Part shown: piece after piece, positions 230-64,000 of the stretch
Layout of the letters: every line of letters starts with the position of its first letter
Position numbering within the stretch: position 1 is the stretch's first letter
DNA from: Amphiura filiformis
Taxonomy: Eukaryota; Echinodermata; Ophiuroidea; Amphilepidida; Amphiuridae
DNA length: 64,000 nt
Direction: 5' to 3'
Assembly: GCF_039555335.1 (NCBI RefSeq)
Contig: NC_092640.1
Coordinates: 29,637,704 to 29,701,703, forward strand
The notes under the pieces: generated by a model
The model's input: the letters and a program-made list of their open reading frames with translations, nothing else
Database searches by the model: none
What the model was told of the DNA's origin: nothing
Translations under genes and position numbers: made by a program

Positions 230-745
230 TATTGGTCAGGGTGTTTCACCAAATACAAAATCAAGAAGTTGAAGTCTTGAAGTTGGAACAGGAGTGGTAA
301 CATTATACAAGTTTGGCTCCTTTACCACTAACTCATCAACATCCAAATCTAGGGGCTTCTCTGCACCAAAGAACACTCCATTTTGGTAATTGATAAGTCC
401 AGGACAAGGGGTACCACAACATGAATGTTACCCTCATCTAAACGACCATCTACATCCAGACTTGGAATAGGAGTGGTAACATTGTAACATGGGGGTGCTA
501 CACCTGATAAAAATTTGGCTTCTTTACCACTTACCTCATCAACATCGAAATCTAGGGGCTTCTCTGCACCAAACAACACCCTATTTAGGTAACTGATAAG
601 TCCAGGACCAGGGGGTACCACAACAGGAATGTTATCCTCATCTAAACCATCTACATCCAGACTAGGAGCTGGATCAGTTGTCATTGCATCATCTTCATGA
701 GTAAACATTTGTAGGACTTGTTGCAAGGAGAGTTGAGACATTTTG
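230..745 (-). pseudogene. Unrecognised duplicated ORF remnant
   Basis: I do not recognise this protein. A minus-strand ORF starts with ATG at 741 and reads 130 codons to 349. It holds two copies of a ~60-residue unit (DNA 461-667 and 281-465) containing motifs such as SLDVDG, VVVPPGPG, FGAEKPLD, DVDE and YNVTTP. The second unit has lost about one base in its proline-rich stretch, so its frame breaks; in the next frame the FGAEKPLDLDVDE motif continues to a stop near 220. No signal peptide or membrane segment is visible. It could be the last exon of a gene, or a domesticated or decayed transposon ORF. The matching codon phase of the two units suggests it was once coding. Confidence 0.35.
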
Positions 746-1020
746 AAGTAGGGTGTGGCAAGGTGGCCATCTTCTACATCGGGTCTGTTGAATGGAATAT
801 AGACAGATGTGTGAGCTAGATACTTGTGAGTAATGCTGAAGGGGTAAATTATTGTCTGCTTATAGTGTAGATGTAGAGGAGCTCCATTTCACAAGGACTT
901 ATAGTTGATCTTATGTTTAATATATCGCACATTAAGAACCTTAAACCGTAAATCAGATATTACTTTCATGTAAGCAAGCTTAGGGTTAGCCTAGTATCAA
1001 GACAGATTATACTGCTAATA

Positions 1021-21840: not shown

Positions 21841-24800
21841 TCAAACCGCGTCAAATCTACGATCCACTCGACCTGGTTTACGTAGTTTCATCTTCAACTG
21901 ATTCCAAAACAAATCTTGTCCATCCACATTATCAGGCCACTTCAACACTTCCTTGTAACATAATAACTGACGAAGCAACAACGTCTTTTTATGATCAGGA
22001 ATTTCCCCAATCTGTACAAGAATTAGTACATCAGCATTGTCCATTACCATTCGCATTCGTGCAAAATGTAGCTGATAATGGCACCATCCATCATCCATGA
22101 AATTCTCTGATAAAACTGCAATAGTTTTGCGACTTTGCTTTATACCATGACATATGGCATTGAGAATATAATGCCCTGCTGGAATGTCACCTCTTTCTTT
22201 AAGACAAAGCCGGAAATGTTCTGGTCCATCTTCAATGTTTGGAATGAGTTGATCATTTATCCATGCTTCAGTGTCTTTGTGATAGGCAACATAAGCATGA
22301 TATCGGCGTCGCATTATTGGTGCTTCATATGGGGCATCAACATCCTCCTCCTCATCACTGTTGATATCAGCATCATCATCATTATCTATATATCGCTGAT
22401 ATCTTCTCTGATAACACAAAATCCAGCATTTGTAATGTAGGCTCCATCGATATTTATAAATTACAGAAAGTATTACACAAATAAGAAGTAAACATGACAC
22501 ACTTGGGGCAATGTAGTTTTCAATATGCAGACTACAGTCTAAAGTAAATTCTGTGATACCAAGATTCTCTCTGATTGCAGGAGATTTGCACTTGTACGGA
22601 GGCTGTGGATCTATGTATGTGTTTGTATCAGTCAGTATCCAATGTTGCAGGGGTTGTATATCACATGTACAAGAAAATGGGATGTCTCCAAATTCAACAT
22701 GCTGCAGGTTGTATGGTGTTTTCATCATACTGGTGGGTAGTGTAGTCAATGCATTACCAGATACAATGAGTGTTTTTATACCATGCAGATCTTTCAAAGA
22801 ATTCAAATTGCCAATTTTGTTTCCAGCCAAATTAAGGTAAGTGAGATTTGACATGCAATGAAATTGATTTTCAGGTAAACTTTCTATTTCATTGTGACTG
22901 AGATCCAAGTGTTTGAGGTTTACGAGTGAAGAAAAGTCATTTCCATTAATATTTTCAATGTCATTACCACTTAGGTCTAAATATTGTAGACTCTGGCTCT
23001 CTAGAAGAAAGTGATAAATTGATGACAATTTACAGTTTGTCAATGACAGCTTTTCTAGGTAAGGAAAATAGTCAATTTCTTTATTAAAAATCAAATTGAC
23101 TCCTTCTGAGTCAGATATGGAGAGTGACTTGAGATGTGAACAATTACCAAATTTAAGATGTGAACGTACATCGAATTGAAGTTTACTGAAGGTAATTTCC
23201 TCAAGTGCAAGGGATGAGGTACACAATGGAAGAAGAGGGTAACCATTCAATATACAATATGCAGCATGTTCGACTGAAATGTAAATAGATCTGAGGACCA
23301 CATTGATGGTGGTAATACGCAAGTAAAGAATCTCACTACCTGGGTCAAGATAATTTGAATACACATTAGTGAGATTGCCAAATAATCCAAGATCCACAGA
23401 TCCAATGGGATTCTTTGACATATCCAGGTATTTCAATCCTAACCTCTTATGCGGCCCAATAAAGTATATATATTCTATGTTATTTTTGCTCACATCCAAG
23501 TGTTCCAGGGAGTCTGCAAGCACTACCAGTGCTTCATATGGAAATTCAGTGAGACCAGCATAGCTAAGGTTCAAGGACTTGAGGTGTGATATGCCTCGAA
23601 AGGCATATTTAGATAGACGTGTAAATTTGTTTGTATTAGAAATACATGTGCTTATACTTAAATGTTGCAGGTACAAAAAAATACTAAATGCATCATCTTC
23701 AACTGATAGATAAGAATTAAAAATACCATAATGACAATTCCAAATTGTCAACAATGACACAGACGAATTCAGTGATCCAGCTATCACAGGTTGAAATACA
23801 AAATCAGCATCAATTGTAAGCGTCAGCGCAGATAGTGAAGGTGGTAACTTTGTGATAAGTTTTAACCATTTGGTGACATTCCAATATTTAGTATCCAATA
23901 TATATTCTTTATCATATTTTAAATGATACCATGTTGATGTGTTCAACTCCTTGAGACTAGTCATATTCTCAATAGAACAGGTTATATAGTCAAAACTATT
24001 GTCATTCATAATTAGAGTTGATAACATTTGGAGGCCTTCTAATACTTTACATGGAGTAGAGGACAAAGCGTTACCGGAAATATCTAAATATGTTAGATGA
24101 GCAAGATTCACAAACAATGTCTCTGGTAAAATTGATAGAAAATTGTTGGATATATCTAAATACTTTAGGTTGATGAGATTCACAAACAATGCGTCTGGTA
24201 AGTCTAATAACATATAATTCCAGGATATATCTAAATGTTTCAAACTGAAGAGATTCACAAACAATGTATCCGGTAAACCCTTCGGCCAAAATATATTTAG
24301 TACAGACGATATATCTAAAAATTCCAGACTAGTAAGGTCTCTGAACAGAGCAGCTGGTAGTGAGGCAATCTGATTATGTGATGCATCCAAGTGAGTCAGA
24401 TTAGTCAAACCTTGGAAAACATAACCAGGGATTGATTCTATTTGATTCAATGATATATCAAGATCTTGCAACTCATTCAATCCACTAAATACTGATGATG
24501 GTAAACTGGACAAACCACTATCTGCAATATGTAACTTCTTTAGTGATGTAGTAGAGTAAAATGTGATTCTGTGAAAAGTAAGATTGCTTTGATAGCTTAG
24601 ATCTAGAGTTTCCAACTTGTTCAATCCTCTAAATGTATCAGTGCTGATATTGAGTATGTTGTTGTGGCTCAGATCTAATTTCTCGAGAGAAGCGAGATGA
24701 ATGAAACTCATCTCATTGACAATTTCAAGTTGATTATGACTCAAATCTAAACACTGAAGTGAACTTAGATGAATGAAACTTCTCCCATAGACAGTTTCAA

Positions 24801-25008
24801 GTTGATTATAACTCAAATCTAGACTCTTGACATTGTGGTCTTTTAGCATCGGAATACTTGAAAGCTGCCTATTTTTACAGTTGAAGTTGGTGCCATTGTA
24901 TATCTTGCATGGTAATCCCTTTGGGTAGGTGAATTTACTGGATGATTCCATGACAGCGAGAACAGCAAACAGACAGACCAGCGAGAACTTCATGATGAAC
25001 ACTTTCAT
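21841..25008 (-). CDS. TLR: TLR-2: Toll-like receptor, intact single exon
   Basis: Predicted innate-immune receptor of 1055 aa in one exon. Order: hydrophobic signal peptide (about residues 1-25; start is M1 or the MKFSL methionine at residue 6), LRRNT with conserved YPKGLPCK and paired cysteines, roughly 20 LRRs (LxxLDLSxNxL pattern), one LRRCT (CTCDIQ...YKCK...LDC, about 780-828), one transmembrane helix (~830-851), acidic linker (DNDDDADINSDEEEDVD) and TIR domain (~902-1055). TIR box 1 is HAYVAYH, box 2 is RGDIPAGH with the BB-loop proline, box 3 is FWNQLKMKLRKP. One LRRCT next to the membrane makes it the single-cysteine-cluster (vertebrate-like) type. It should sense a ligand outside the membrane and recruit TIR adaptors inside. 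Ligand unknown. Its 3' flank shows the empty target site of the insertion found downstream of TLR-4. Confidence 0.95.
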   Translation of the reverse strand: MKVFIMKFSLVCLFAVLAVMESSSKFTYPKGLPCKIYNGTNFNCKNRQLSSIPMLKDHNVKSLDLSYNQLETVYGRSFIHLSSLQCLDLSHNQLEIVNEMSFIHLASLEKLDLSHNNILNISTDTFRGLNKLETLDLSYQSNLTFHRITFYSTTSLKKLHIADSGLSSLPSSVFSGLNELQDLDISLNQIESIPGYVFQGLTNLTHLDASHNQIASLPAALFRDLTSLEFLDISSVLNIFWPKGLPDTLFVNLFSLKHLDISWNYMLLDLPDALFVNLINLKYLDISNNFLSILPETLFVNLAHLTYLDISGNALSSTPCKVLEGLQMLSTLIMNDNSFDYITCSIENMTSLKELNTSTWYHLKYDKEYILDTKYWNVTKWLKLITKLPPSLSALTLTIDADFVFQPVIAGSLNSSVSLLTIWNCHYGIFNSYLSVEDDAFSIFLYLQHLSISTCISNTNKFTRLSKYAFRGISHLKSLNLSYAGLTEFPYEALVVLADSLEHLDVSKNNIEYIYFIGPHKRLGLKYLDMSKNPIGSVDLGLFGNLTNVYSNYLDPGSEILYLRITTINVVLRSIYISVEHAAYCILNGYPLLPLCTSSLALEEITFSKLQFDVRSHLKFGNCSHLKSLSISDSEGVNLIFNKEIDYFPYLEKLSLTNCKLSSIYHFLLESQSLQYLDLSGNDIENINGNDFSSLVNLKHLDLSHNEIESLPENQFHCMSNLTYLNLAGNKIGNLNSLKDLHGIKTLIVSGNALTTLPTSMMKTPYNLQHVEFGDIPFSCTCDIQPLQHWILTDTNTYIDPQPPYKCKSPAIRENLGITEFTLDCSLHIENYIAPSVSCLLLICVILSVIYKYRWSLHYKCWILCYQRRYQRYIDNDDDADINSDEEEDVDAPYEAPIMRRRYHAYVAYHKDTEAWINDQLIPNIEDGPEHFRLCLKERGDIPAGHYILNAICHGIKQSRKTIAVLSENFMDDGWCHYQLHFARMRMVMDNADVLILVQIGEIPDHKKTLLLRQLLCYKEVLKWPDNVDGQDLFWNQLKMKLRKPGRVDRRFDAV

Positions 25009-26160
25009 ATCAGCTGAGTGGGTGAAAACTACATAGACACTGCTTGTTTAAAGATTGTAGAACTTCTTTTCTTGTATGTCTGGATGTTCTAGTATGTCCT
25101 GACTATTATCTTACAGTTTCTTTCAAATGACCAGCAGATGAGCGAAAATATTATGAATACACAACAAACAAGAGACTATTGAAATTGTGAGTGTGAAGTG
25201 TTGATCACCAAAAGTATGTGTGGGAAAATTTCAGAACACCCATGCCAGTCAGTTTCACTTCTTTTCTTGTTTCATAATACTCTCTACATCAAGTTCAAGA
25301 AAATATTAAAGGGACATGAAATAAATAATAAATATGCCTTACTGGTTCACAAATTGAAATGAGCCAAGATTGTTTGGGGGAACTCACATTATAACAGTGA
25401 CATACTTGTTCCTAACATTGAGAACATGAAACTAGGGGACTATATCAAACAAAGACAGATTTTTCGAAAAAGAATGTCACAAGAGGGTCAATTAGGCAAC
25501 AGATTGTGAAAATCTGCTGACTATTTTAGAGATTTTCCGGAAATATTGCCATGATCTGTGAGTTCTATCAAAATATGACAATTTAAGGAGTGCAATGCGT
25601 TTACATCAAAAGAAGCGGTAGGTGCATGGGAAAAACAATCTCCACGAAATGAGTATAAGTAAATTTGAACATAGCAGCTCATCTTTCTTTCTTTGTTATC
25701 GCTTTTTTTTAAAACAAAATAACCATTTAATTTCTTCTGTATAGTGCCTTTTGCACTTTGATAGCATGTTAAGCATGATTTCCTATGGGACTGTCTTGCT
25801 TGTACAGATTTTATGTCACTTTTAGAAAGTATATGGGTACTATTATTAAACTATTTGCACAGGGAAACAATAGATCCATGGTGAACACCAGACAAATCTA
25901 TAGTGTCCCTTGAATACTGCTTGTTATAGTTCTTCTCTAATGCAGGATAAAAAACTGATACAGCAATTTAAGTTTTATCGCTATGCATTTGTTTTCCACG
26001 AAACTTATTCTCTGTATCAAAACCAAGTTCACTTTCTGTCAATCATCCTATTTAGGTCTATCAATCATCCCTTTTAAGGTTAGCTAAATGAAATCATTTT
26101 TGATCAGGGTTAATATTTGGCAAGAATTGTTTGTCAAATCCCTAATGAGTTCAAAAAGCA
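25009..26160. other. TLR-2 5' flank, homologous to TLR-4 and TLR-5 flanks
   Basis: Non-coding. Blocks such as TATCTTACAGTTTCTTTCAAATGA, GACATACTTGTTCC and ATCAAAAGAAGCGGTAGGTGC recur at 40216-42200 and 48450-49680. It is therefore the 5' part of the duplicated receptor unit and probably holds the promoter. No TATA box can be assigned with confidence. Confidence 0.6.
25222..25232 (+). promoter_or_regulatory. kappaB-like motif upstream of TLR-2
   Basis: GGGAAAATTTC followed by AGA lies 214 bp upstream of the start codon. Identical motifs lie upstream of TLR-4 (40448-40458) and TLR-5 (48675-48685) at 233 and 226 bp. It resembles Rel/NF-kB sites. Because the whole flank was duplicated, conservation alone is weak support. 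Confidence 0.25.
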
Positions 26161-26166
26161 TCTTAA

Positions 26167-26807
26167 GGGAAGGGGTATGAACGTTTGGACAGTATTTATT
26201 GTGGGACATTAGAGCACATCAGACATATCGAATTGCAATCTGAATACGAAGAATGTCCTTCTGATATCAAATAATTTTGATTTTCTGAAATTAGCAATGT
26301 AATACACATTTTATGGCAAATCATTAAAATTGATATTTTTGATATTTAACAGTACTCAAAGTAAACTTTATCAATCTGATGATTTATACTTAAAGTGTAT
26401 GTAGATGGGATGAAAAGCCGACGATAAATTGAATTTTGACCTTTAGATTTTTTCCCAAAAAAAAACAAAAAAAATAGGTCTTTTTGGGAAAAAAAATCCA
26501 TATCTTGAATATGAAAGGTCAAAATTTTCAATTGATCGTCACTTTTCCTCCCAGCTACATACACTTTAAGAATATATCATTAGATTTATAAAATTTACTT
26601 GAGGACTGTTATATTTCAAAATTTGAAAATATCAAATTTTTAAATTTGTCATAAAATTTGTATTATATCGTGATTTTCAACAAATGAAAATTATTTGATA
26701 TCAGAAAGACATGCTTTGTATTCAGAATGCAATTCGATACATCTGAGGTGCTCTCATGTCCCATAAAAAATACTGTTGAAATGCTCAAAACGCTCATTCC
26801 AGATCCC
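26167..26807. mobile_element. Palindromic TTAA-target MITE, copy 2
   Basis: This is the same family as 15830-16489. TTAA flanks it at 26163-26166 and 26808-26811. The same mirrored motifs are present (AAAGTGTATGTAG, GTCAAAATTTTCAATTGATC). It lies between TLR-2 and TLR-3. Confidence 0.85.
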
Positions 26808-27065
26808 TTAATATGATGTTTAATTCATACAATCAAAATATTAAAGAATTCCTTTTATTTATGTCTACACTTTTCAATTATTGCAAATGCATATTTTACA
26901 TAAATAGCTATAAATGTTACATTGTTCAAAACACAATTATTGTGCATAATAAGTGTTCTTCAAGTCATTATAGCAACAGGATATAAATATCACAATATTA
27001 CAGGTTGATAAATCCAGTATGGTCAAACTTGCACAAGTCATGAAATGTTTGTTATTAATTTTGTA

Positions 27066-31564: not shown

Positions 31565-32893
31565 ATCCTTGTCTTGTACGTTTATAAATAATAGTTCGTA
31601 TCTTTGCCACACCAAACCATTGTTTGAAAAGTACAATTTACTTAATATATGCCATCTGTATAATAAAGAACTGGGTATATTTATATACAAATATCATAAG
31701 GGCCTATTACCAAGATCATTTGACAACTTGTTCATAAACATGAAGTCTATTCACAATTATAATACCAGAAAAAAAGAGAATTATCGCCCTGACATCCATA
31801 AAGTCACTGACGTTTTAACACTTGGTCTAGGCTATGGAATAGTTTGCCAAGTGAAATTAAAGAAGCTAAACTGGTAAATGAATTCAAAAATAGTATGTTA
31901 AGGGATCTAAAATGAGCATTTATTGCGTTTCGACAGTATTTTTTGTGGGACATGAGAGAACCTCAGACCTATCAAATTGTATTCTGAATACGAAGCATGT
32001 CTTTCTGATATCAAATAATTTTCATTTTTTGAAAATCACAATATAATACAAATTTTATGACAAATTATAAAAATTTGATATTTTTCACATTTTGATATAT
32101 AACAGTCCTCGAAGTAAATTATATAAATCTAATGATATATTCTTAAAGTGTATGTAGCAGGGAGGAAAAGCCGACAGTCAATTGAAAATTTTGACCTTTC
32201 ATATTGAAGATATGGATTTTTTTCCCAAAAGGACCAAATTTTTTTTGGTGTTTTGGGAAAAAAATCCATATCTTCAATCTGAAAAGGTCAAAATTTTCAA
32301 TTGATCGTCGGCTTTTCATCCCACCTACATACACTTTAAGTATAAATCATCAGATTTATAAAGTTTACTTCAAGTACTGTTAAATATCAAAAATATCAAT
32401 TTTAATGATTTGCCATAAAATGTGTATTAAATTACAATTTCAAAAAATCAAAATTATTTGATATCAGAATGACATTCTTCATATTCAGAATGCAATTCGA
32501 TATGTCTGATGTGCTCTAATGTCCCAAAATAAATACTGTCTAAACGTCATACCCCAGCCCTTAAGGTATCTAAAAGATAACAAATACTGCCTCTCATAAT
32601 TTATATTGTGCTGACTCTATGTTATTCACTATACTACTTGATACTATACTACTGCTAAAATATTTGTTTGCTTAAAATTGTATTATGGTAAATTAAGATG
32701 GGTTCTTTGTGTGTATGTGTTTATTCGTTGTATTGATTAAATTATAATTATTTGTTAGTTAATAGGTTGTACATCGTTATCAGGCCTCGGCTTTGTGATG
32801 TACCTACCTTCATCAAATCTTGTTAATTCACAATAATTGTATATAATAATGCTATAATGTTTGTATGAGATTGATGAAAATAAAGATTGATTG
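31565..32893 (+). mobile_element. LINE 3' end split by a TTAA MITE
   Basis: A plus-strand ORF from about 31569 reads the C-terminus of a non-LTR reverse-transcriptase protein: PLFEKYNLLNICHLYN, IYKYHKGLLPRSF, NYNTR are the pattern of the LINE ORF2 tail. It is interrupted at 31898 by the 659-bp MITE. Beyond the MITE, in the original frame once one TTAA is removed, the ORF runs on briefly (YLKDNKYC) to a stop. The 3' region ends in ATTG repeats (32880-32893). There is a frameshift before the insertion, and the element is 5'-truncated and dead. Confidence 0.7.
31902..32560. mobile_element. Palindromic TTAA-target MITE, copy 3 (in a LINE)
   Basis: This is the same family as 15830-16489. TTAA lies at 31898-31901 and 32561-32564. 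The host LINE reading frame resumes across the pair of TTAA sites, which fixes the boundaries exactly. Confidence 0.88.
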
Positions 32894-37140: not shown

Positions 37141-40100
37141 TCAAACTGCATCAAATCGACGATCCACTCGACCTGGTTTACGTAGTTTCATCTTCAACTG
37201 ATTCCAGAATAACTCTTGTCCATTGGGATCTTCAGGCCACTTCAACACTTCCTTGTAACATAATAACTGACGAAGCAACAATGTCTTTTTATGATCAGGT
37301 ATTTCGCCAATCTGTACAAGAATTAGTACATCAGCATTGTCTATTACCATTCGCATTCGTGCAAAATGTAGCTGATAATGACACCATCCATCATCCATGA
37401 AATTCTCTGATAAAACTGCGATAGTTTTGCGACTTTGCTTAATACCATGACATATGGCATTGAGAATATAATGTCCCGCTGGAATGTCACCTCTGTCTTT
37501 AAGACAAAGCCGGAACCGTTCTGGTCCATCTTCAATGTTCGGAATGAGTTGATCATTTATCCATGCTTCATTGTCTCTGTGGTAGGCAACATAAGCATGA
37601 TATCGACGCCGTATGATTGGAGCTTCATATGGGGCATCAACATCATCCTCATCATCACTATTGATATCAGCATCATCATCATTATCTATATATCGCTGAT
37701 ATCTTCTCTGACAACACAAAATCCAGCATTTATAATGCAGGCGCCATCGATACTTATAAATATAAATTGTAGAAACTATTACACATATAACAAATAGACC
37801 TGACACGCTTGGGGCAATGTAGTATTCAAGATGCAGACTGCAGTCTAAACTAAATTCTGTAATACCAAGATCCTTTCTGATTGCAGGATTGTTGCACAGG
37901 TATGGAGACAGTGGATCTATGTATGTTTTTGTATCTGTCAGTATCCAATGTTGCAGGGGTTGTATATAACAGGTACAAGAAAACGAGTTGTCGCCAAATT
38001 CAACATGCTGCAAGTTATATGGTATTTTCATCAGAGCGGCAGGTAGTGTAGTCAATGCATTACCAGATACAATGAGTGTTTGCAGACTATAGAGACCATT
38101 CAAAGCATTCAAATTTGCAAGTTTGTTTCCACTTAGATTAAGGTAGCTGAGATGTGACATATAATGGAATTGATTTTCTGGTAAACTTTCTATTTTATTA
38201 TGACTGAGATCCAAGTGTTCTAGGTTTACCAGTGAAGTAAAGTCATTTGCATTAATATTTTCAATGTTATTGCCACTCAGGTCTAAATATTGTAGACTAA
38301 GACCCTCAAGAAGAAATTGGTCAATTAGTGATAAATTACAGTTTGTTAATGAGAGCTTTTCTAGGTGAGGAAAATTGTCACTTTTATCTTGAAAAATTAA
38401 ATGGACTCCTTCTGAGTCAGATATGGAGAGTGACTTGAGATGTGAACAATTACCCAATACAAATGGGGCAGATTCATTGAATTTAAGTTTACTGAGGTTA
38501 ACTGTCTCAAGTGCCAGAGATGAAGTACACAACGGCAAAGGAGAATCATAGTAGATTGTCGCAACATGTTCAACTGAAATGTAAATAGATCTGAGGGCCA
38601 CATTGAAGGTACTAATGGACAAGAAAAAAGTATCCGTATTAAGAGAATTCAAATATACATTGGTGACATTGCAAAGTGATCCAAGGTCTATATTCCTTAT
38701 GGGATTCCATGAGATATCCAGGGATTTCAATCTTGATCTCATGTACCGCCCATCATGGTATATATCCTGTATGTCATTATTACTCAAATTCAAGTGTTCC
38801 AGTGTGTCTGCAAGTACTTCCAAGGTTTCATAAGAAAATTCACTGAGACCAGCATAACTAAGGTCCAATGACTTTAGTTGGAATAAACCTCGAAAGGTAT
38901 ATTTTGATAGATGTGTTAATTTATTTTTTGTAGAACAACTATGTGTGTTTATACTCAATTTTTTCAAGTACAAAAACATACTAAATGCATCATCTTCAAC
39001 TGATACATCAAAATAATTAGTGCAATAGAAGCAAATTGTCAACAATGACACAGATGAATTCAATGATTCAGGCATCACAGGTTGAAATACAGCTTTACCG
39101 CTTACACCCAGGTTTAGTGTTGATAGTGTAGTCGGTAACTTCGTGATAAGTTCTGACCATTTGGCATCATTCCAATATTCAGTATAATCTTTATGGATAT
39201 TATATGATGTGCTCAACTCCTTGAGACTAGTCATATCCTCCAAAGAACAAGTTGAATAGTCAAAGCTATTGTAAGTCATATCTAGTGTTGATAACATTGG
39301 AAGGCTTAATATTGCTTTGCAAGGAGTAGAGGATAGGAAATTAATGGAAATATCTAAATATGTTAAATGTGTAAGATTAACAAACAATGTTTCTGGTAAG
39401 CTTGATATGTCATTGTTGGATATATCTAAATGTTTCAGATTGATGAGATTCACAAACAATGTCTCTGGTAAAGTAATCATTAAGAATGAGGATACATCTA
39501 AATATTCCAGATTAATAAGATCTTTAAACAGAGCAGCTGATACTGGAAATCCAGTATTCAATAGATAACTTGCATCCAACTGAGTCAGTTTAGTCAAACC
39601 TTGGAAAACAGAATCAGGGATTGAAATACCATTATTTGATATATCAAGCTCTTGCAGCTCTTGTAATCCACTAAATACTGATGGTGATAGACTAGACAAA
39701 CTACTATAAGTAATATCTAACTTCTTTAATGATGCAGTGGAGTAAAATGGAGTTCCATGCAAGGTAAGACGACTACGGTAGCTTCCTTGATAGCTTAGAT
39801 CTAGAGTTTCCAGTTTGTTCAGTCCTAAGAATGTACCATTTCTGATATCCAGTATCTTGTTGTTGCTCAAATCTAAACTCTGAAGAGAAGTGAGATGAAT
39901 GAAACTCTTACCATAGACAGTTTGAAGTTGATTGTGACTCAAATCTAAATGCTGAAGAGAAGTGAGATGAATGAAACTTATCCCATAGACAGTTTGAAGT
40001 TGATTATAACTAAAATCTAGACTCTTGACATTTCGGCCTTTTAGCACTGGAATACTTGAAAGCATTCTATTACTACAGTCACAGCTGGTGCCATTGTATA

Positions 40101-40215
40101 TCTTGCACGGTAATCCCTTTGGGTAGGTGAATTTACTGGATGATTCTGTGATAGCGAGAACAGCAAACAGACAGATCAGAGAGAACTTCATGATGAACAC
40201 TTTCATTATAGACAC
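37141..40215 (-). CDS. TLR: TLR-4: Toll-like receptor, intact single exon
   Basis: Predicted 1024-aa TLR in one exon. Signal peptide with three candidate methionines (residues 1, 4 and 9; the last, MKFSLICLFAVL, matches the core of the TLR-2 signal), LRRNT (KFTYPKGLPCKIYNGT), about 20 LRRs including near-identical neighbouring repeats (LQHLDLSHNQLQTVYGKSF type), LRRCT (CTCYIQPLQHW...CSLH), transmembrane helix ~798-822 with a short YIYKY extension not seen in TLR-2, acidic linker and TIR domain ~871-1024 (HAYVAYH, RGDIPAGH, FWNQLKMKLRKP). It is the closest intact relative of TLR-2 and shares its flanks. One cap residue differs (CTCY for CTCD). It is expected to be a membrane receptor signalling through its TIR domain; the ligand is unknown. 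Confidence 0.95.
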   Translation of the reverse strand: MSIMKVFIMKFSLICLFAVLAITESSSKFTYPKGLPCKIYNGTSCDCSNRMLSSIPVLKGRNVKSLDFSYNQLQTVYGISFIHLTSLQHLDLSHNQLQTVYGKSFIHLTSLQSLDLSNNKILDIRNGTFLGLNKLETLDLSYQGSYRSRLTLHGTPFYSTASLKKLDITYSSLSSLSPSVFSGLQELQELDISNNGISIPDSVFQGLTKLTQLDASYLLNTGFPVSAALFKDLINLEYLDVSSFLMITLPETLFVNLINLKHLDISNNDISSLPETLFVNLTHLTYLDISINFLSSTPCKAILSLPMLSTLDMTYNSFDYSTCSLEDMTSLKELSTSYNIHKDYTEYWNDAKWSELITKLPTTLSTLNLGVSGKAVFQPVMPESLNSSVSLLTICFYCTNYFDVSVEDDAFSMFLYLKKLSINTHSCSTKNKLTHLSKYTFRGLFQLKSLDLSYAGLSEFSYETLEVLADTLEHLNLSNNDIQDIYHDGRYMRSRLKSLDISWNPIRNIDLGSLCNVTNVYLNSLNTDTFFLSISTFNVALRSIYISVEHVATIYYDSPLPLCTSSLALETVNLSKLKFNESAPFVLGNCSHLKSLSISDSEGVHLIFQDKSDNFPHLEKLSLTNCNLSLIDQFLLEGLSLQYLDLSGNNIENINANDFTSLVNLEHLDLSHNKIESLPENQFHYMSHLSYLNLSGNKLANLNALNGLYSLQTLIVSGNALTTLPAALMKIPYNLQHVEFGDNSFSCTCYIQPLQHWILTDTKTYIDPLSPYLCNNPAIRKDLGITEFSLDCSLHLEYYIAPSVSGLFVICVIVSTIYIYKYRWRLHYKCWILCCQRRYQRYIDNDDDADINSDDEDDVDAPYEAPIIRRRYHAYVAYHRDNEAWINDQLIPNIEDGPERFRLCLKDRGDIPAGHYILNAICHGIKQSRKTIAVLSENFMDDGWCHYQLHFARMRMVIDNADVLILVQIGEIPDHKKTLLLRQLLCYKEVLKWPEDPNGQELFWNQLKMKLRKPGRVDRRFDAV

Positions 40216-40447
40216 CGATTGTCTAATAATTGCAGAATTTCTTTTTCCTGTCTGGCTGGATAGATCCCACTAGTATGTCCTAACTTATTTTCTTACAGTT
40301 TCTTTCGAATGAAAAAACAGGAAGATGAGCGAAAATATTACGAAGTGTTTTTTAACAAATACACAGCAAACAGAGACTATTGAAATTGTGAGTGTGGAAG
40401 GTTGATCGCCAAAAGTATGTGTGGAAACATTTCAGACCAATATGTGT

Positions 40448-51734: not shown

Positions 51735-52345
51735 CTATTGATATCAAAAAAGCAGGATGAGATGTCGTTCACAAGCAGCTAAAGATAAGCCTCCTTATAT
51801 TATTGTGACTGCTATAGTTGATTCGGCTTTAAATTGACAAAATTTGTTTTTTACTGCACACATCAATAAAGTTCCAACTGCATCCAACTGTGTTCAAGCC
51901 ATTCTATATCAATACACGATGTAATAAGTCTCTCTTATTTTGCCAATTATAAGCCAAACAAATAATAGCATGATATGAGCATAAGAATCAAGCCACTCAC
52001 CTTGTGTTGCATCAATTGACAGCAGCAAAGCACCTTTCACAACAAGATGTCCTTCCTGAAGCAGCTGATGATAAGCTTCCTTGCTGGAATTCTGATATCA
52101 TTGTGACTGCTATAGTTTCTTCGGCTTACAATTGGCGAAAATTATTCAGGTTTTTTTACCACATGCGTCAATAAAGTTCCAACCTACGCTCACTTTGTAA
52201 ATTCACATAAACGTGTGCCAGTCATGCATTAAGCAAAGAGCAACTGTGCTCACACCATTCTATATCAATGCACGATGTAATAAGTCTGACTTGTTTTGCC
52301 AATTATAAGCCAAACAAACTAAAGTATGACATGGGCATAAGAATG
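51735..52345 (-). pseudogene. Partial tandem copies of the HPS3 exon at 52357-52553
   Basis: The 3' half of the neighbouring HPS3 exon, with its intron start, is repeated. A good copy at 52009-52105 reads NSSKEAYHQLLQEGHL..KGALLLSIDATQ and ends in AAG followed by GTGAGT. A decayed copy lies at ~51740-51805. The repeat unit is ~350 bp and includes intron sequence (CAATTATAAGCCAAACAAA). In the better copy the codon matching CGA is TGA, so full-length use would terminate. Confidence 0.7.
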
Positions 52346-52356
52346 TACGCACTAAC

Positions 52357-52553
52357 CTTGTGTAGCATCAATTGACAGCAACAAAGCACCCTTCAGGATG
52401 AGATGTCCTTCCTGAAGCAGCTGATGATAAGCTTCCTTGCTGGAATTCTGATATCGTTGTCCTAGCGACAACATCTCATTGAAGACCTCTTCCAAAGCTG
52501 CTTTATGAAGGACTTGAATATTCCATGATTTGACAAGTTTTGATGCAGTGTTT
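52357..52553 (-). CDS. HPS3: HPS3 exon (BLOC-2 subunit), middle region
   Basis: HPS3 is a subunit of BLOC-2 with HPS5 and HPS6 and helps cargo reach lysosome-related organelles such as pigment granules. This exon lies between an acceptor (TTTTAACAG, exon starts at 52553) and a donor (CAAG followed by GTTAGT). It encodes NTASKLVKSWNIQVLHKAALEEV...SSKEAYHQLLQEGHLILKGALL, which aligns with the vertebrate HPS3 stretch containing GWNLYIV and SEAHLLVRAAL as I remember it. It needs an incoming phase of 2, but the visible upstream exon ends in phase 1, so at least one exon between them was not found. Downstream exons were also not found. Confidence 0.8.
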
Positions 52554-53036: not shown

Positions 53037-56000
53037 TCAATCTCACTCCCTGACACACCTATATGATGGGCTTGTTGGTTGTTTAGTTTTAGACAGCAGT
53101 GTCACATGGTTGACTGATACTGATACATGAGTTATATTGATCCAAGGCAATAGGCCAATCATGCATACATCTAAGTCAACTGGAGGGCTAGCCTGTTACA
53201 TAATGACTCACCTATACGATGGGCTTGTTGGTTGTTTAGTTTTAGACAGCAGTGTCACATGGTTGACTGATACTGATACATGAGTTATATTGATCCAAGG
53301 CAATAGGCCAATCATGCATACATCTAAGTCAACTGGAGGGCTAGCCTGTTACATAATGACTCACCTATACGATGGGCTTGTTGGTTGTTTGGTTTTAGAC
53401 AGCAGTGTCACATGGTTGACTGATACCGATACATGAGTTATATTGATCCAAGGCAATAGGCCAATCATGCATACATCTAAGTCAACTGTAGGGCTAGCCT
53501 GTTACATAATGACTCACCTATATGATGGGCTTGTTGGTTGTTTGGTTTTAGACAGCAGTGTCACATGGTTGACTGATACTGATACATGAGTTATATTGAT
53601 CCAAGGCAATAGGCCAATCATGCATACATCTAAGTCAACTGTAGGGCTAGCCTGTTACATAATGACTCACCTATACGATGGGCTTGTTGGTTGTTTGGTT
53701 TTAGACAGCAGTGTCACATGGTTGACTGATACTGATACATGAGTTATATTGATCCAAGGCAATAGGCCAATCATGCATACATCTAAGTCAACTGGAGGGC
53801 TAGCCTGTTACATAATGACTCACCTATACGATGGGCTTGTTGGTTGTTTGGTTTTAGACAGCAGTGTCACATGGTTGACTGATACTGATACATGAGTTAT
53901 ATTGATCCAAGGCAATAGGCCAATCATGCATACATCTAAGTCAACTGTAGGGCTAGCCTGTTACATAATGACACGCCTATACGATGGGCTTGTTGGTTGT
54001 TTGGTTTTAGACAGCAGTGTCACATGGTTGACTGATACTGATACATGAGTTATATTGATCCAAGGCAATAGACCCATCATGCATACATCTAAGTCAACTG
54101 GAGGGCTAGCCTGTTACATAATGACTCACCTATATGATGGGCTTGTTGGTTGTTTGGTTTTAGACAGCAGTGTCACATGGTTGACTGATACTGATACATG
54201 AGTTATATTGATCCAAGGCAATAGGCCAATCATACATACATCCAAGTCAACTGGAGGGCTAGCCTGTTACATAATGACTCACCTATATGATGGGCTTGTT
54301 GGTTGTTTGGTTTTAGACAGCAGTGTCACATGGTTGACTGATACTGATTCATGAGTTATATTGATCCAAGGCAATAGGCCAATCATGCATACATCTAAGT
54401 CAACTGGAGGGCTAGCCTGTTACATAATGACTTACCTATACGATGGGCTTGTTGGTTGTTTGGTTTTAGACAGCAGTGTCACATGGTTGACTGATACTGA
54501 TACATGAGTTATATTGATCCAAGGCAATAGACCAATCATGCATACATCTAAGTCAACTGGAGGGCTAGCCTGTTACATAATGACTCACCTATACGATGGG
54601 CTTGTTGGTTGTTTGGTTTTAGACAGCAGTGTCACATGGTTGACTGATACTGATACATGAGTTATATTGATCCAAGGCAATAGACCAATCATGCATACAT
54701 CTAAGTCAACTGGAGGGCTAGCCTGTTACATAATGACTCACCTATACGATGGGCTTGTTGGTTGTTTGGTTTTAGACAGCAGTGTCACATGGTTGACTGA
54801 TACTGATACATGAGTTATATTGATCCAAGGCAATAGACCAATCATGCATACATCTAAGTCAACTGGAGGGCTAGCCTGTTACATAATGTCGCGCCTTTAC
54901 GATGGGCTTGTTGGTTGTTTGGTTTTAGACAGCAGTGTCACATGGTTGACTGATACCGATACATGAGTTATATTGATCCAAGGCAATAGGCCAATCATGC
55001 ATACATCTAAGTCAACTGGAGGGCTAGCCTGTTACATAATGACTCACCTATACGATGGGCTTGTTGGTTGTTTAGTTTTAGACAGCAGTGTCACATGGTT
55101 GACTGATACTGATACATGAGTTATATTGATCCAAGGCAATAGGCCAATCATGCATACATCTAAGTCAACTGGAGGGCTAGCCTGTTACATAATGACTCAC
55201 CTATACGATGGGCTTGTTGGTTGTTTGGTTTTAGACAGCAGTGTCACATGGTTGACTGATACCGATACATGAGTTATATTGATCCAAGGCAATAGGCCAA
55301 TCATGCATACATCTAAGTCAACTGTAGGGCTAGCCTGTTACATAATGACTCACCTATATGATGGGCTTGTTGGTTGTTTGGTTTTAGACAGCAGTGTCAC
55401 ATGGTTGACTGATACTGATACATGAGTTATATTGATCCAAGGCAATAGGCCAATCATGCATACATCTAAGTCAACTGTAGGGCTAGCCTGTTACATAATG
55501 ACTCACCTATACGATGGGCTTGTTGGTTGTTTGGTTTTAGACAGCAGTGTCACATGGTTGACTGATACTGATACATGAGTTATATTGATCCAAGGCAATA
55601 GGCCAATCATGCATACATCTAAGTCAACTGGAGGGCTAGCCTGTTACATAATGACTAACCTAAACGCGGGGCGTGTTGGTTGTTTGGTTTTAGACAGCAG
55701 TGTCACATGGTTGACTGATACTGATACATGAGTTATATTGATCCAAGGCAATAGGCCAATCATGCATACATCTAAGTCAACTGTAGGGCTAGCCTGTTAC
55801 ATAATGACTCACCTATACGATGGGCTTGTTGGTTGTTTGGTTTTAGACAGCAGTGTCACATGGTTGACTGATACTGATACATGAGTTATATTGATCCAAG
55901 GCAATAGACCCATCATGCATACATCTAAGTCAACTGGAGGGCTAGCCTGTTACATAATGACTCACCTATATGATGGGCTTGTTGGTTGTTTGGTTTTAGA

Positions 56001-57641
56001 CAGCAGTGTCACATGGTTGACTGATACTGATACATGAGTTATATTGATCCAAGGCAATAGGCCAATCATACATACATCCAAGTCAACTGGAGGGCTAGCC
56101 TGTTACATAATGACTCACCTATATGATGGGCTTGTTGGTTGTTTGGTTTTAGACAGCAGTGTCACATGGTTGACTGATACTGATTCATGAGTTATATTGA
56201 TCCAAGGCAATAGGCCAATCATGCATACATCTAAGTCAACTGGAGGGCTAGCCTGTTACATAATGCCTCACCTATACGATTGGGCTTGTTGGTTGTTTGG
56301 TTTTAGACAGCAGTGTCACATGGTTGACTGATACTGATACATGAGTTATATTGATCCAAGGCAATAGACCAATCATGCATACATCTAAGTCAACTGGAGG
56401 GCTAGCCTGTTACATAATGACTCACCTATACGATGGGCTTGTTGGTTGTTTGGTTTTAGACAGCAGTGTCACATGGTTGACTGATACTGATACATGAGTT
56501 ATATTGATCCAAGGCAATAGACCAATCATGCATACATCTAAGTCAACTGGAGGGCTAGCCTGTTACATAATGACTCACCTATACGATGGGCTTGTTGGTT
56601 GTTTGGTTTTAGACAGCAGTGTCACATGGTTGACTGATACTGATACATGAGTTATATTGATCCAAGGCAATAGACCAATCATGCATACATCTAAGTCAAC
56701 TGGAGGGCTAGCCTGTTACATAATGACTCACCTATACGATGGGCTTGTTGGTTGTTTGGTTTTAGACAGCAGTGTCACATGGTTGACTGATACTGATACA
56801 TGAGTTATATTGATCCAAGGCAATAGACCAATCATGCATACATCTAAGTCAACTGGAGGGCTAGCCTGTTACATAATGACTCACCTATACGATGGGCTTG
56901 TTGGTTGTTTGGTTTTAGACAGCAGTGTCACATGGTTGACTGATACTGATACATGAGTTATATTGATCCAAGGCAATAGACCAATCATGCATACATCTAA
57001 GTCAACTGGAGGGCTAGCCTGTTACATAATGACTCACCTATACGATGGGCTTGTTGGTTGTTTGGTTTTAGACAGCAGTGTCACATGGTTGACTGATACT
57101 GATACATGAGTTATATTGATCCAAGGCAATAGGCCAATCATGCATACATCTAAGTCAACTGGAGGGCTAGCCTGTTACATAATGACTCACCTATACGATG
57201 GGCTTGTTGGTTGTTTGGTTTTAGACAGCAGTGTCACATGGTTGACTGATACTGATATGTTAGTTATATTGATCCAAGGCAATAGGCCAATCATGCATAC
57301 ATCTAAGTCAACTGGAGGGCTAGCCTGTTACATAATGACTCACCTATACGATGGGCTTGTTGGTTGTTTGGTTTTAGACAGCAGTGTCACATGGTTGACT
57401 GATACTGATACATGAGTTATATTGATCCAAGGCAATAGGCCAATCATGCATACATCTAAGTCAACTGGAGGGCTAGCCTGTTACATAATGACTCACCTAT
57501 ACGATGGGCTTGTTGGTTGTTTGGTTTTAGACAGCAGTGTCACATGGTTGACTGATACTGATACATGAGTTATATTGATCCAAGGCAATAGGCCAATCAT
57601 GCATACATCTAAGTCAACTGGAGGGCTAGCCTGTTACATAA
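53037..57641. repeat. 153-bp satellite, ~30 copies, 12-unit higher-order repeat
   Basis: Units start GATGGGCTTGTTGGTTGTTT and include GATACATGAGTTATATTGATCC. The spacing is exactly 153 bp from 53065 to the last unit at 57503, apart from one inserted T near 56280. Rare variants recur exactly 1836 bp (12 units) apart: GACCCATC (54071/55907), CATCCAAG (54240/56076), GATTCATGAG (54346/56182), ACCGAT (53426/55262), TTTAGTTTT (53233/55069). This proves a 12-unit block was duplicated. It lies between HPS3 exons 52357-52553 and 58939-59301. Confidence 0.95.
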
Positions 57642-58112
57642 TAAGAACAAATCAATGAATAACTTGAAAGTTATTTCAAGGGAGGCATTTATTGGAAGTG
57701 AATTGTCAATGAAAAAGTACAAAGGAGGGATTTACAACTATACTAATGCTACTACCATGGTGCCTCCCACGGAAATCGAGGGGAAAATGACATTTTTGTG
57801 GTAAATACATCAAAATTACACCCGTAAGTACATCATCAAGCAAGAATCTGGTGAATTTCTACCATAATTAGGCAATGAAATGGATGGAAGTTCGCGTCAT
57901 AATAGGTTTTGTCCACGCAATTTAGCGATCGTCACTGACATGACTGATGCAAGTTTTAAGCTTACCCACACAAAATGGCATGGATATGTTTGCATTTTTG
58001 TCAATTTTTCATTGAAAAATTGGAAGGGGGCGTTTATTAGAGGGGGAGCGTTTATTACAAACAATACAGTATTCCAACTGTGAAAACACCTACAATATTC
58101 TCTCTAATCTAA
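57642..58112. other. Non-coding stretch beside the satellite
   Basis: No exon is recognised. It includes GGGGGCGTTTATTAGAGGGG near 58026. The ORF at 57880 has no recognisable product. Confidence 0.4.
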
Positions 58113-58938: not shown

Positions 58939-59301
58939 CTTGGCTCTGCCTCCAGCATAAACAAACGATCATGCCCTGAACCTCTGAATCATGATACATT
59001 TTCTTCTCACTCACCAATATGTTCTCATCATTAGAATCGAGACGTTGAAATGCTGCCGCAAATGATCTCAGTGTGTAAATCTCCAAACCATTTTGCGTCA
59101 GTGCATACAGCAGACTATGACCAGCCTTGACACTGAGGGCATCTGCTTTATACGAGTACTGCGATAGCAAACAAGGTGTTTCTAGTATATTGTAGAGGTA
59201 GCCATCGGTGGTAGTACTGATGAAGCAACACAGGCTTTGTAGTGTTTTCTGACCAGTGCCTAAGGGGTCCACGTCATCTTTCTTGATTCTATCATCCTGA
59301 T
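58939..59301 (-). CDS. HPS3: HPS3 exon, N-terminal half
   Basis: This 363-bp exon starts after CTCCAG (59302-59303) and ends at CAAG before GTATTT. With the G carried from the previous exon it reads DQDDRIKKDDVDPLGTGQKTL, then QSLCCFISTTTDGYLYNI and YTLRSFAAAF. This follows the HPS3 pattern (LFCFF...GYLY...CFTVRCSAAAA, recalled). The phase joins perfectly to the exon at 59797-59933. A partial tandem copy of its 5' half lies immediately upstream at 59340-59515. The exon's last ~15 residues match HPS3 weakly, so an alternative donor near 58965 is possible. Confidence 0.85.
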
Positions 59302-59339
59302 CTGGAGTATACAGAAATAATGAAACAAAGATAACAAGC

Positions 59340-59515
59340 AAGGTGTTTCTAGTATACTGTAGAGGTAGCCATCAGTGGTACATGTAGTACTAATGAAGCA
59401 ACACAGACTTTAAACTTGAGCTTTGGAGTGATTTCTGACCAGTGCCTTAGGGGGTCTACATCATCTTTCTTGATTCTATCATCAGAATCTAGAGTATAGA
59501 GATATAATGATACAA
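59340..59515 (-). pseudogene. Tandem partial copy of the 58939-59301 HPS3 exon
   Basis: The stretch repeats the exon's 5' half with its acceptor (CTCTAG then ATTCTGATGATAGAATC), with a period of about 170 bp. It reads DSDDRIKKDDVDPL and then shifts frame through one extra base and stops. The junction AGGTGTTTCTAG marks where the copies join. It is a decayed pseudo-exon. Confidence 0.75.
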
Positions 59516-59796
59516 ATTAGTGGGTTTTTGGTCTACTGAATTACAAAAAATGTTTGCAAAATTGTTATGATCAATGGATAGAAGCTTTGATTCATCTATT
59601 GTGTCCATTTTGAGCACTGACATATTAGAAAATGTTGCCAATCAATATTCATAAGGTAGTACAATCAAAGCCAAGTTTTCGAGAATGTTACATCTAGGTT
59701 TTGCTATTATTATGTTTTGGCATAAACAATCGATCATGTCATAAATTCTATTAATGAACCCCTAATTCTAATTGCTTTATAATCATCACCTCATAC

Positions 59797-59933
59797 CTTT
59801 TTTGAAATTCGGCAGTAATTGCAATGAGTGGATAGGTCCCTGGTTCACATCACTGTCACTGTCTTGGCTGAATTTACGATACAATAGGTGAGTGATAGAA
59901 ACTTGTAGCTGAGAACCTGCTAAACCCCCTTCA
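59797..59933 (-). CDS. HPS3: HPS3 exon with HLLYR motif
   Basis: This 137-bp exon follows TTTGCAG and precedes GTATGA. It encodes EGGLAGSQLQVSITHLLYRKF followed by ...PIHSLQLLPNFKK. The HLLYR-F and LHSLQLLP blocks match HPS3 as I remember it (HLLYRRF and LHSLQLLP). Incoming phase 2 joins to the donor at 61745 (AG + T) and outgoing phase 1 joins to the exon at 59301, so three exons form a continuous frame. Confidence 0.85.
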
Positions 59934-61744: not shown

Positions 61745-62272
61745 CTGTACAAATACACTTCATCCCATTTCACTTGAACAGGTTGACCTTTGACCTTTTC
61801 CTTTGGTCCCAGAATTTCAGTTGGTAGCTTTGAGTCATCATGGAACAACTTCTCATGTTTCACAGACGACAGGAGAATTGATGAAGCGCTTGGTTTGCGT
61901 ATTGGCCTCATGAATGTCTCTGGAATGGTGTATCCCGCTGATCCGAAGTTCCATGTTACTCCTGCGTCTTTTCCACCAGAAGTAGTTAATGTTTCATCAC
62001 TACTCCCGGGATCCACCGCAGCTTGATCATCTTCTTGAGACTAAGCACTGTGTGCTCCCTATCAGCTTCAAATTCAGCAAGATTGTCGGTCTTTGATGCA
62101 GTTTTCACACCGATTTGATCATGAGTCCAGTCGCCAAACGTGAGTTTGAAGCAGTGAAGCTGATGACTGGATGCAAAGGCTACATATTGCTGAGTAAGAG
62201 CCACTTCTTTGACCGGGAAACTGACTACAATGTCTAGTAAGTGGGTGAAGTCTTTGTATTCTGTATCGGTGC
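61745..62272 (-). CDS. HPS3: HPS3 exon region with an apparent frame break
   Basis: It starts after TTTTCAG at 62272 and ends at TACAG before GTAATT. The first part reads GTDTEYKDFTHLLDIVVSF then KEVALTQQYVAFASSHQLHCFKLTF, matching the HPS3 propeller stretch (FSLLDFE...VGYVAVMSDLEVLIVKLE, recalled). After DREHTVL the frame must move by -1 to continue as SQEDDQAAVDPGSSDETLTTS to KWDEVYLY, whose end joins the next exon in frame. Either one base is missing near 62040, or a 68-bp intron with a GTGAAA donor and CTTAG acceptor, in matching phase, removes the piece. The linker here is expected to be variable in HPS3. Confidence 0.75.
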
Positions 62273-62679: not shown

Positions 62680-62886
62680 TTAAGGCATGCACTGATCTCG
62701 AACTGTGTATCCCTAGAATGGTTTATGGAATGATTTGGGCTCCACTGCATGTACGCCATTCTATATCATGCATCTTACCTATTTTGAGTTGAACAAAGTG
62801 TACAAGTTTTACAAATTGACAGATACTTTAACAACTGTCAATTACCAATCCCAAGCTCCCACCATGATACCAAGTTTTACACCTAC

Positions 62887-63008
62887 CTTTATTGTGAATA
62901 ACAAACTTGAAGACAGCCAATGAATTATTCAATCCAACCACCACATTGCCAGTAAGCAGACAACAATTTAGACATTTTGGTGATGTTCTCAGACACATTT
63001 TTCAAAGT
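62887..63008 (-). pseudogene. HPS3 array exon copy 1 (8-bp deletion)
   Basis: The acceptor GACAG and donor are intact, but 8 bp are missing after ACTTTG, which shifts frame. Copy 3 has the same lesion. Confidence 0.75.
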
Positions 63009-63061
63009 CTGTCAATATCCCAATTCTAAGCCCCCTCCATGACCCAACGTTTTACACCTAC

Positions 63062-63190
63062 CTTATTATGAATAACAAACTTGAAGACCGCCAATGAATT
63101 ACTCAATCCAACCACCACATTGCCAGTAAGCAGACAGCAATTCAGACATTTTGGTGATGTTCTCAAAGTAAAGGACACTTTGTACAAAGT
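63062..63190 (-). CDS. HPS3: HPS3 array exon copy 2, most intact
   Basis: Acceptor TTTGACAG and a fully open frame (TLYKVSFTLRTSPKCLNCC...VIHNK) are present. One A is missing just before the donor, so the outgoing phase is 0, whereas the next exon at 62272 needs phase 1. If used as written the frame breaks at the junction. Confidence 0.55.
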
Positions 63191-63242
63191 CTGTCAAATG
63201 GCCAATTCCATCCCCCATCATGACATCAAGTTTTACACTTAC

Positions 63243-63364
63243 CTTTATTGTGAATAACAAACTTGAAGACAGCCAATGAATTACTCAATCCAACCACCAC
63301 ATTGCCAGTAAGCAGACAACAATTTAGACATTTTGGTGATGTTCTCAGACACATTTTTCAAAGT
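63243..63364 (-). pseudogene. HPS3 array exon copy 3 (8-bp deletion)
   Basis: It carries the same 8-bp deletion as copy 1, and has the best donor match (AAAG then GTAAGT). Confidence 0.75.
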
Positions 63365-63380
63365 CTGTCAATATCCCAAT

Positions 63381-63583
63381 AGAGGCCGTCAGCCTTTCGC
63401 CATCTTGTGGGTACAAATGATCTGTGTGTTCATGCGTCGGACACTACGCGCAGGGCGCAGCTTGCCACGCCGCTGTTATCGCGTATCAACGCGGTGATTT
63501 TGCTGTTCACGCATGGAGATCGAACGATCATCACAGCGTGTACCCACAAGATGGCGGCATATGACGTCACGCTGACGGCCTCT
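63381..63583. mobile_element. 203-bp MITE inserted in the exon array
   Basis: The ends AGAGGCCGTCAGC and GCTGACGGCCTCT are inverted, and GCCATCTTGTGGGTACA is mirrored further in. The neighbouring array unit (63029-63034, CCCAAT then TCTAAG) is the empty site, implying a 2-bp AT (or equivalently placed TA) duplication. It is GC-richer than its surroundings. Confidence 0.8.
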
Positions 63584-63622
63584 ATTCTAAGCCCCCTCCA
63601 TGACCCAAAGTTTTACACCTAC

Positions 63623-63752
63623 CTTTATTATGAATAACAAACTTGAAGACAGCCAATGAATTACTCAATCCAACCACCACATTGCCAGTAAGCAGACAGC
63701 AATTCAGACATTTTGGTGATGTTCTCAAAGTAAAGGACACTTTTTACAAAGT
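63623..63752 (-). pseudogene. HPS3 array exon copy 4 (stop, acceptor lost)
   Basis: ACAG has become ACAA at the acceptor and TAC has become TAA at the third codon. The rest of the frame and the donor are intact. Confidence 0.7.
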
Positions 63753-63804
63753 TTGTAAATTGCCCAATTCCATCCCCTGCCATGACACCAAGTTTTACAC
63801 CTAC

Positions 63805-63934
63805 CTTTATTGTGAATAACAAACTTGAAGACAGCCAATGAATTACTCAATCCAACCCCCACATTGCCAGTCCGCAGACAACAATTCACACATTTTGGTG
63901 ATGTTCTCAAAGTAAAGGACACTTTTTACAAAGT
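63805..63934 (-). pseudogene. HPS3 array exon copy 5 (stop, acceptor lost)
   Basis: It has the same lesions as copy 4, plus private changes (CVNCCLRTGNVGVG). Confidence 0.7.
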
Positions 63935-64000
63935 TTGTAAATTGCCCAATTCCATCCCCTGCCATGACACCAAGTTTTACACCTACCTTTATTGTGAATA

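Follow-up and report, generated by a model that had tools for sequence, protein, structure and literature searches.

Two constitutive exons of an HPS3 gene have probably been tandemly duplicated in situ, with the gene tolerating the resulting arrays because one copy of each exon is spliced into the message and the rest are carried as decoys. The two arrays, called here array A and array B, lie on the minus strand of a window of 64,000 bases (the whole stretch of DNA analysed; 62.6% A+T, 0 N), and the analysis drew on the window itself, on family libraries and on published papers. A preliminary description of this DNA had dealt with array A; it mentioned neither array B, which is a second, longer and cleaner array of an HPS3 exon, nor a transposon-like insert in array A.

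The pieces of HPS3 are found on the minus strand in an order colinear with the Pfam profile HPS3_N and then HPS3_C, covering HPS3_N positions 127-239 (the array A exon with exon Eb), 279-320 (Ec), 331-404 (Ed) and 412-454 (the array B exon), followed by HPS3_C positions 2-38 (Ee) and 65-96 (Ef). Outside the arrays, the exons are as follows.

61745..62272, minus strand: HPS3 exon Eb, 528 nt, the next exon after array A, with a frame change inside at about 62040
59797..59933, minus strand: HPS3 exon Ec, 137 nt, placed by HPS3_N 279-320 (20.7 bits, below the cutoff) and by phase
59015..59301, minus strand: HPS3 exon Ed, 287 nt; the ORF at 58865-59371 matches HPS3_N 331-404 at 38.8 bits
52357..52553, minus strand: HPS3 exon Ee, 197 nt, HPS3_C 2-38 at 17.3 bits, below the cutoff
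535..784, minus strand: HPS3 exon Ef, 250 nt, HPS3_C 65-96 at 20.6 bits, below the cutoff

The Pfam cutoffs are 26.2 bits for HPS3_N and 26.7 bits for HPS3_C. The HPS3_N cutoff is passed by the array A exon joined to Eb (31.7 and 34.3 bits), by the Ed ORF (38.8 bits), and by Ed, the array B exon and Ee taken together (64.9 bits). The small exons taken singly and every HPS3_C piece (17.3, 20.6 and 15.5 bits) score below the cutoffs. Splice dinucleotides, AG and GT, border all six of the exons checked, namely Eb, Ec, Ed, the first array B copy, Ee and Ef. A PDB search with the HPS3 peptide returned three weak matches (E 0.28-0.55) that were taken as chance, and nothing was found in the window by Rfam at the gathering threshold or by a tRNA scan.

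In the case of Eb, the reading frame shifts near 62040, where either one base is missing or a 77-nt stretch bounded by GT and AG represents an intron. The frame is restored when this stretch is left out, and Eb thus need not be broken. The phase at the end of Ee does not fit the phase at the start of Ef, so an exon is probably missing between the two; a one-motif search for this presumed small exon gave none that was convincing among the matches listed. Across the window, the HPS3 frame is open from Ec through Ed and array B to Ee, changes within Eb, and is damaged in the array A copies under one model of that exon (the CAG model, described below), with the start of the gene lying outside the window.

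Array B sits between Ed and Ee, and is delimited by the following features.

53051..57642, minus strand: array B, 30 tandem copies of a 153-bp unit that consists of a 134-nt exon assigned to HPS3 and a 19-nt spacer (GTGAGTCATTATGTAACAG)
57497..57630, minus strand: first copy of array B, which keeps the native upstream intron end and is an exact match to the consensus
53059..53192, minus strand: last copy of array B, after which the native downstream intron begins (GTGTGTCAGGG)

On the minus strand, a unit consists of the acceptor TAACAG, the 134-nt exon, and a donor, which in most copies is GTGAGTCA. An AG, a GT and an open frame are retained together in 27 of the 30 copies, the exceptions being those at 56273-56406, 54895-55028 and 53977-54110. 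Searching the window with the exon at E 0.1 returned 30 HSPs, with 0 outside the array. Taken alone, the exon matches HPS3_N at 11.7 bits (E 0.1). When Ed, the array B exon and Ee are joined, the match extends over HPS3_N 331-464 and rises to 64.9 bits, versus 38.8 bits for the Ed ORF alone. In addition, the exon has a start phase of 0 and an end phase of 2, which is exactly what Ed and Ee require. On position, phase and joined score, the array B exon therefore appears to be an HPS3 exon.

On both sides of array B, the flanks continue as unrepeated sequence between HPS3 exons, which argues that the array grew in place. The spacer fuses the initial 8 nt of the downstream intron, 7 of which agree with the native flank, to the terminal 11-12 nt of the upstream intron. 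An origin of the arrays from reinserted small circular DNA was also considered. Copies in register differ from the consensus exon by 0 to 5 bases. Leaving out copy 9, which carries an extra base, there are 17 exon variants, of which 8 are silent, 8 change a residue and 1 creates a stop. Nine variants are common to at least two copies, and six of these nine are silent (chance 0.010-0.025); the shared residue changes fall at codons 4, 12 and 23, in 6, 2 and 2 copies, respectively. The exon varies at 17 of its 134 sites and the spacer at 4 of its 19, numbers too small to establish a difference. Copies 7, 8, 10, 11, 12, 15, 16 and 17 share their non-consensus exon variants with the copy 12 units further on, a recurrence from which duplication of a block of about 12 units follows.

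Array A occupies 62887-64000 on the minus strand, where TRF and BLAST identify five complete copies and one cut copy of an HPS3 exon. TRF reports repeats at 62835-63380 and 63593-64000, with periods of 174 and 182 and scores of 822 and 753. A BLAST search of the whole window with one unit (E 0.001) recovers five units and a 45-bp end, and none elsewhere. The copies, and an insert between two of them, are listed below.

62887..63008, minus strand: copy c1, 122 nt, with an 8-bp deletion and the frame lost from CAG/ACTTTG; donor intact
63062..63190, minus strand: copy c2, 129 nt, with the best CAG acceptor of the five (5.2) and 43 codons open
63243..63364, minus strand: copy c3, 122 nt, with the same 8-bp deletion as c1; donor GTAAGT
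63381..63583, strand not assigned: MITE-like insert in the c3-c4 spacer, 203 bp, with 13-bp perfect terminal inverted repeats (AGAGGCCGTCAGC) and, read by eye, AT on both sides
63623..63752, minus strand: copy c4, 130 nt, with CAG changed to CAA and an in-frame TAA near the start; past this TAA the frame is open and in phase with Eb
63805..63934, minus strand: copy c5, 130 nt, with start lesions as in c4 and four private substitutions
63987..64000, minus strand: copy c6, truncated by the end of the window to its last 14 nt; donor intact

Successive copies are spaced by 175, 181, 380, 182 and 182, the third step including the insert. Array A is a minisatellite-size array within a gene. The preliminary description had proposed that copies of an HPS3 coding exon with splice edges lie here in tandem units, and TRF, BLAST and the minus-strand copy map all bear this out. 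The likeness of the translated block to HPS3 also held. Three versions of the exon score 19.0, 21.4 and 21.3 bits alone against HPS3_N (cutoff 26.2), and the exon passes the cutoff when joined to Eb, for which the first 84 residues alone give no match.

A strong GT donor is present in all six copies, with scores of 10.1-11.9 on a consensus table. The position of the acceptor is less clear-cut. In the CAG model, the exon runs from CAG/ACTTTG to AATAAAG/GT and is 130 nt long. For c2, the CAG acceptor scores 5.2, close to the 5.6 of the Ef acceptor and above the alternatives AAG (-0.9) and GAG (3.4), and for this reason CAG/ACTTTG is the most likely original acceptor of array A; the five other HPS3 acceptors that were scored are all CAG. 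Under this model, the three kinds of lesion previously described for the five complete copies are indeed present: c1 and c3 are without 8 bp, c4 and c5 have CAA for CAG together with the in-frame TAA, and c2 is without one base in AATAAAG, just before the donor, which places the next exon out of frame.

The true exon start of array A is not proven, and a start at GAG/AACATC gives a different picture. From this start the frames are open in four of the five copies (c1, c3, c4 and c5) and end in the phase that Eb needs, as judged by translation for c4 and c5 and by arithmetic for c1 and c3. The GAG acceptor is of fair strength in c4 and c5 (3.4), and scores -5.4 in c1 and c3. Adding the six residues upstream of the GAG start raises the HPS3_N score by 2.4 bits, from 19.0 to 21.4, and extending to the CAG start brings no further gain (21.3). 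As the profile scores the extended and CAG starts alike, homology does not settle the start. The earlier claim, that there must be an intact copy beyond the window unless the gene is damaged, does not follow from these data. The base lost from c2 sits in a run of A and could be a sequence error, and c4 and c5 keep the fallback acceptor.

The history of array A can be read in part from its spacers. The c1 and c3 units are 93.7% identical over 191 bp, versus 84.7% over 373 bp for a shift by one unit; by BLAST, c4 is 95.8% identical to c2, and 87% identical to c1 and c3. Two spacer types alternate from c1 to c4, and this alternation, with the pairing of c1 with c3 and of c2 with c4, indicates that a dimer was duplicated. 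The grouping as dimers in the preliminary description is thus upheld for c1 to c4, but does not extend to c5, whose identity to the adjacent c4 is equally high (95.2%); the spacers c4-c5 and c5-c6 have the same sequence. The c1-c2 spacer represents the empty site of the 203-bp insert (spacer lengths of 53 and 258), and the insertion therefore came after the split of the two dimers. Elsewhere in the window, the insert finds only short matches at chance level.

Within the 96-nt coding core common to the array A copies there are nine variable sites, four silent and five residue-changing (counting a two-base change in codon 11 of c5 as two). Four of the five residue-changing sites are private to c5, each being a change to C on the plus strand, and these private changes may be sequence errors. 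All three of the changes common to at least two copies are silent (chance 0.014-0.029), and four silent sites among all nine are not unusual (0.15-0.29). In the matched units c3-c5 and c2-c4, 6 of 192 core sites differ, versus 9 of 52 in the spacer (Fisher P 0.0009), but this contrast is not general, since the c4-c5 spacer equals the c5-c6 spacer and the c1-c2 and c3-c4 spacers are one base apart outside the insert. Coding constraint on the array A copies, or on the exon from which they were copied, is thus suggested by the sequence comparisons but not established.

The two arrays share the property that exactly one copy per message keeps the frame. For array B this is evident from translation: Ec, Ed, one array B copy and Ee give 251 residues with no stop, and stops are introduced by omitting the exon, by including it twice or by retaining a pair. 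For array A the property follows from length only, 130 nt not being a multiple of three. Decay of the locus would offer another account, in which a degenerating or duplicate HPS3 carries the arrays as neutral pseudogene repeats, the working HPS3 lying elsewhere. A dead copy is possible, and would fit the lesions that the CAG model gives to all five complete copies in array A, the frame change within Eb, and the additional, incomplete copies of Ed, Ee and Ef. We nevertheless consider it unlikely, given that the frame stays open, with matching phases, from Ec through Ed and array B to Ee over those 251 residues, that 27 of 30 array B copies are intact by the test of AG, GT and open frame, and that the Eb frame returns once the 77-nt stretch is omitted.

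In situ duplication in a gene that tolerates the arrays could have proceeded as follows. For each of two constitutive HPS3 exons, a segment just larger than the exon would have been tandemly duplicated in place, and later rounds of unequal exchange or slippage would have expanded the arrays, by a dimer in array A and by a block of 12 units in array B. Most spacers are 19 or 52-53 nt, probably too short for removal as introns, and the frame would be kept only by an mRNA with exactly one copy, as translation indicates for array B. These two properties would explain why the arrays are tolerated. The copy that is spliced in may be that at the 5' end of an array, where the native intron end survives. 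In array B, the acceptor scores of internal copies and of the first copy are about equal (5.5 and 5.3), and use of the 5'-most copy is thus not forced by the splice site. The remaining copies would be tolerated decoys, free to decay. Too-short introns are described as preventing the joining of neighbouring exons in clusters of two (PMC6071210); with many copies, frame and nonsense-mediated decay would presumably complete the exclusion. Judged by divergence, array A seems older and decaying, and array B recent or still being homogenised. It is tempting to go further and suppose a working gene in which two obligate HPS3 exons are present solely as tandem arrays. The spliceosome would select one of many near-identical copies 19 or 52 nt apart, and frame and steric exclusion would shield the gene so well that constitutive exons could grow and shrink like minisatellites, with the array still under selection (9 of 12 shared changes are silent when the two arrays are taken together); this broader proposal is tentative, and we hold it to be doubtful.

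The requirement for one copy per message is reminiscent of regulated mutually exclusive exons, which would give alternative protein segments as in Dscam. Such a reading is favoured by the array B frame, which is kept only with one copy per mRNA, by the residue differences at codons 4, 12 and 23 (in 6, 2 and 2 copies), and by the three residues at which c5 of array A differs. The protein-level divergence expected of mutually exclusive exons is not seen, however, as the shared differences are mostly silent in both arrays (three of three in array A, six of nine in array B, against a neutral expectation of 0.24-0.31). Array B copies in register are 0 to 5 bases from the consensus exon, array A holds no intact alternative under the CAG model, and the c5 changes, all to C on the plus strand, may be errors. 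Regulated alternative exons are thus not supported and seem improbable here, and the suggestion in the preliminary description that array A is a reservoir for alternative exons finds little support, a few residue changes notwithstanding.

It might also be asked whether the arrays are artefacts, with single exons or short duplications inflated by mis-assembly. Odd clusters of substitutions near the donor of array B copies 13, 18 and 24, and in c5, do resemble consensus errors. Yet array A copies have a deletion and substitutions in common, one spacer holds a transposon-like insert whose empty site is seen in a sister spacer, and the shared variants of array B recur in an ordered 12-unit pattern, all of which makes mis-assembly a very improbable source of the arrays.

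Coding repeats arranged head-to-tail within a gene are familiar from nebulin, titin and the mucins, where the repeats are translated together. The HPS3 arrays are likewise intragenic and head-to-tail, but here the frame is broken when two copies are translated. Satellite DNA seeded from other sequences resembles the arrays in unit size (153 and ~181 bp) and in dimer and higher-order structure. The arrays differ from it in that both are at the exon's own place in the gene, and in that the unit is an exon the frame still needs (demonstrated for array B). Within the window, the unit of each array is found only within that array.

The closest likeness is to the exon clusters of Dscam1, tropomyosin and MHC, which, as in arrays A and B, consist of adjacent homologous exon copies with flanking intron, one being allowed per mRNA. 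In those systems the copies are diverged functional variants, whereas array B is nearly identical throughout, with 30 copies 19 nt apart, and array A is damaged. A too-short intron is a known cause of exon exclusivity (PMC6071210, PMC9013439), and a 2002 study, as cited in the latter paper, put tandemly duplicated exons in ~10% of animal genes (PMC9013439). Tandem exon duplication as a kind is well known, and both arrays consist of adjacent exon copies with splice sites in one gene; the HPS3 arrays appear to be an extreme form of this common event. What is unusual is the presence of 30 near-identical copies of an obligate exon, together with a second array in the same gene. Among the matches listed in a literature search, judged by the openings of their abstracts, no paper described a 30-copy array of an obligate exon, which is not proof of absence in print. 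If transcripts confirm the arrangement, it would offer a naturally occurring case for testing how the spliceosome selects one of up to 30 near-identical and very close exons, and would indicate that a coding exon can turn into a tandem array and the gene not be lost. It further suggests a way for individuals to differ in exon copy number with the protein hardly affected.

Local direct duplications make up ~27% of the sequence outside the Toll-like-receptor-type (TLR) genes (12,479 of 46,792 bases). Four of six HPS3 exons overlap such duplications, versus 1.95 expected, which is not significant (P 0.094; the array B exon was excluded, and exon ends were a few bases off), and this may therefore be no more than a duplication-rich region. 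Duplication units that hold a whole exon and both splice dinucleotides number 2 of 10, versus 0.05 expected at random (P 0.001 for at least two), in a list of 10 units made by hand after the arrays were known.

Partial tandem copies of Ed, Ee and Ef, ~170-220 bp and each covering only part of the exon, are present as well. For instance, the 5' part of Ed is recopied upstream (59163-59329 and 59330-59516), with the copy at 59330-59516 being partial and broken in frame; the 3' part of Ee is duplicated downstream (51885-52104 and 52241-52460), as is the 3' part of Ef, with loss of the donor (283-466 and 482-667). A tandem duplication of ~810 bp (90%) with an internal 145-bp repeat lies at 5172-6842. 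Long inverted repeats at 15856-16475, 26145-26828 and 31926-32546 are ~620-680 bp and 75-85% identical to their own reverse complement, and may be foldback or MITE-like elements.

Between Ee and Ef, at 13468-48494, are five Toll-like-receptor-type genes, and as they are on the same minus strand, this TLR cluster seems to lie within introns of HPS3. Pfam confirms LRR and TIR domains in the two TLR genes that have one long open frame (21844-25047 and 37144-40269), and the other three are split over several ORFs. Compared with the two open genes, the split copies have both, at 27845 and 46164, lost the same single base from a run of A in two cases of the three, which suggests an inherited lesion rather than a sequencing error.
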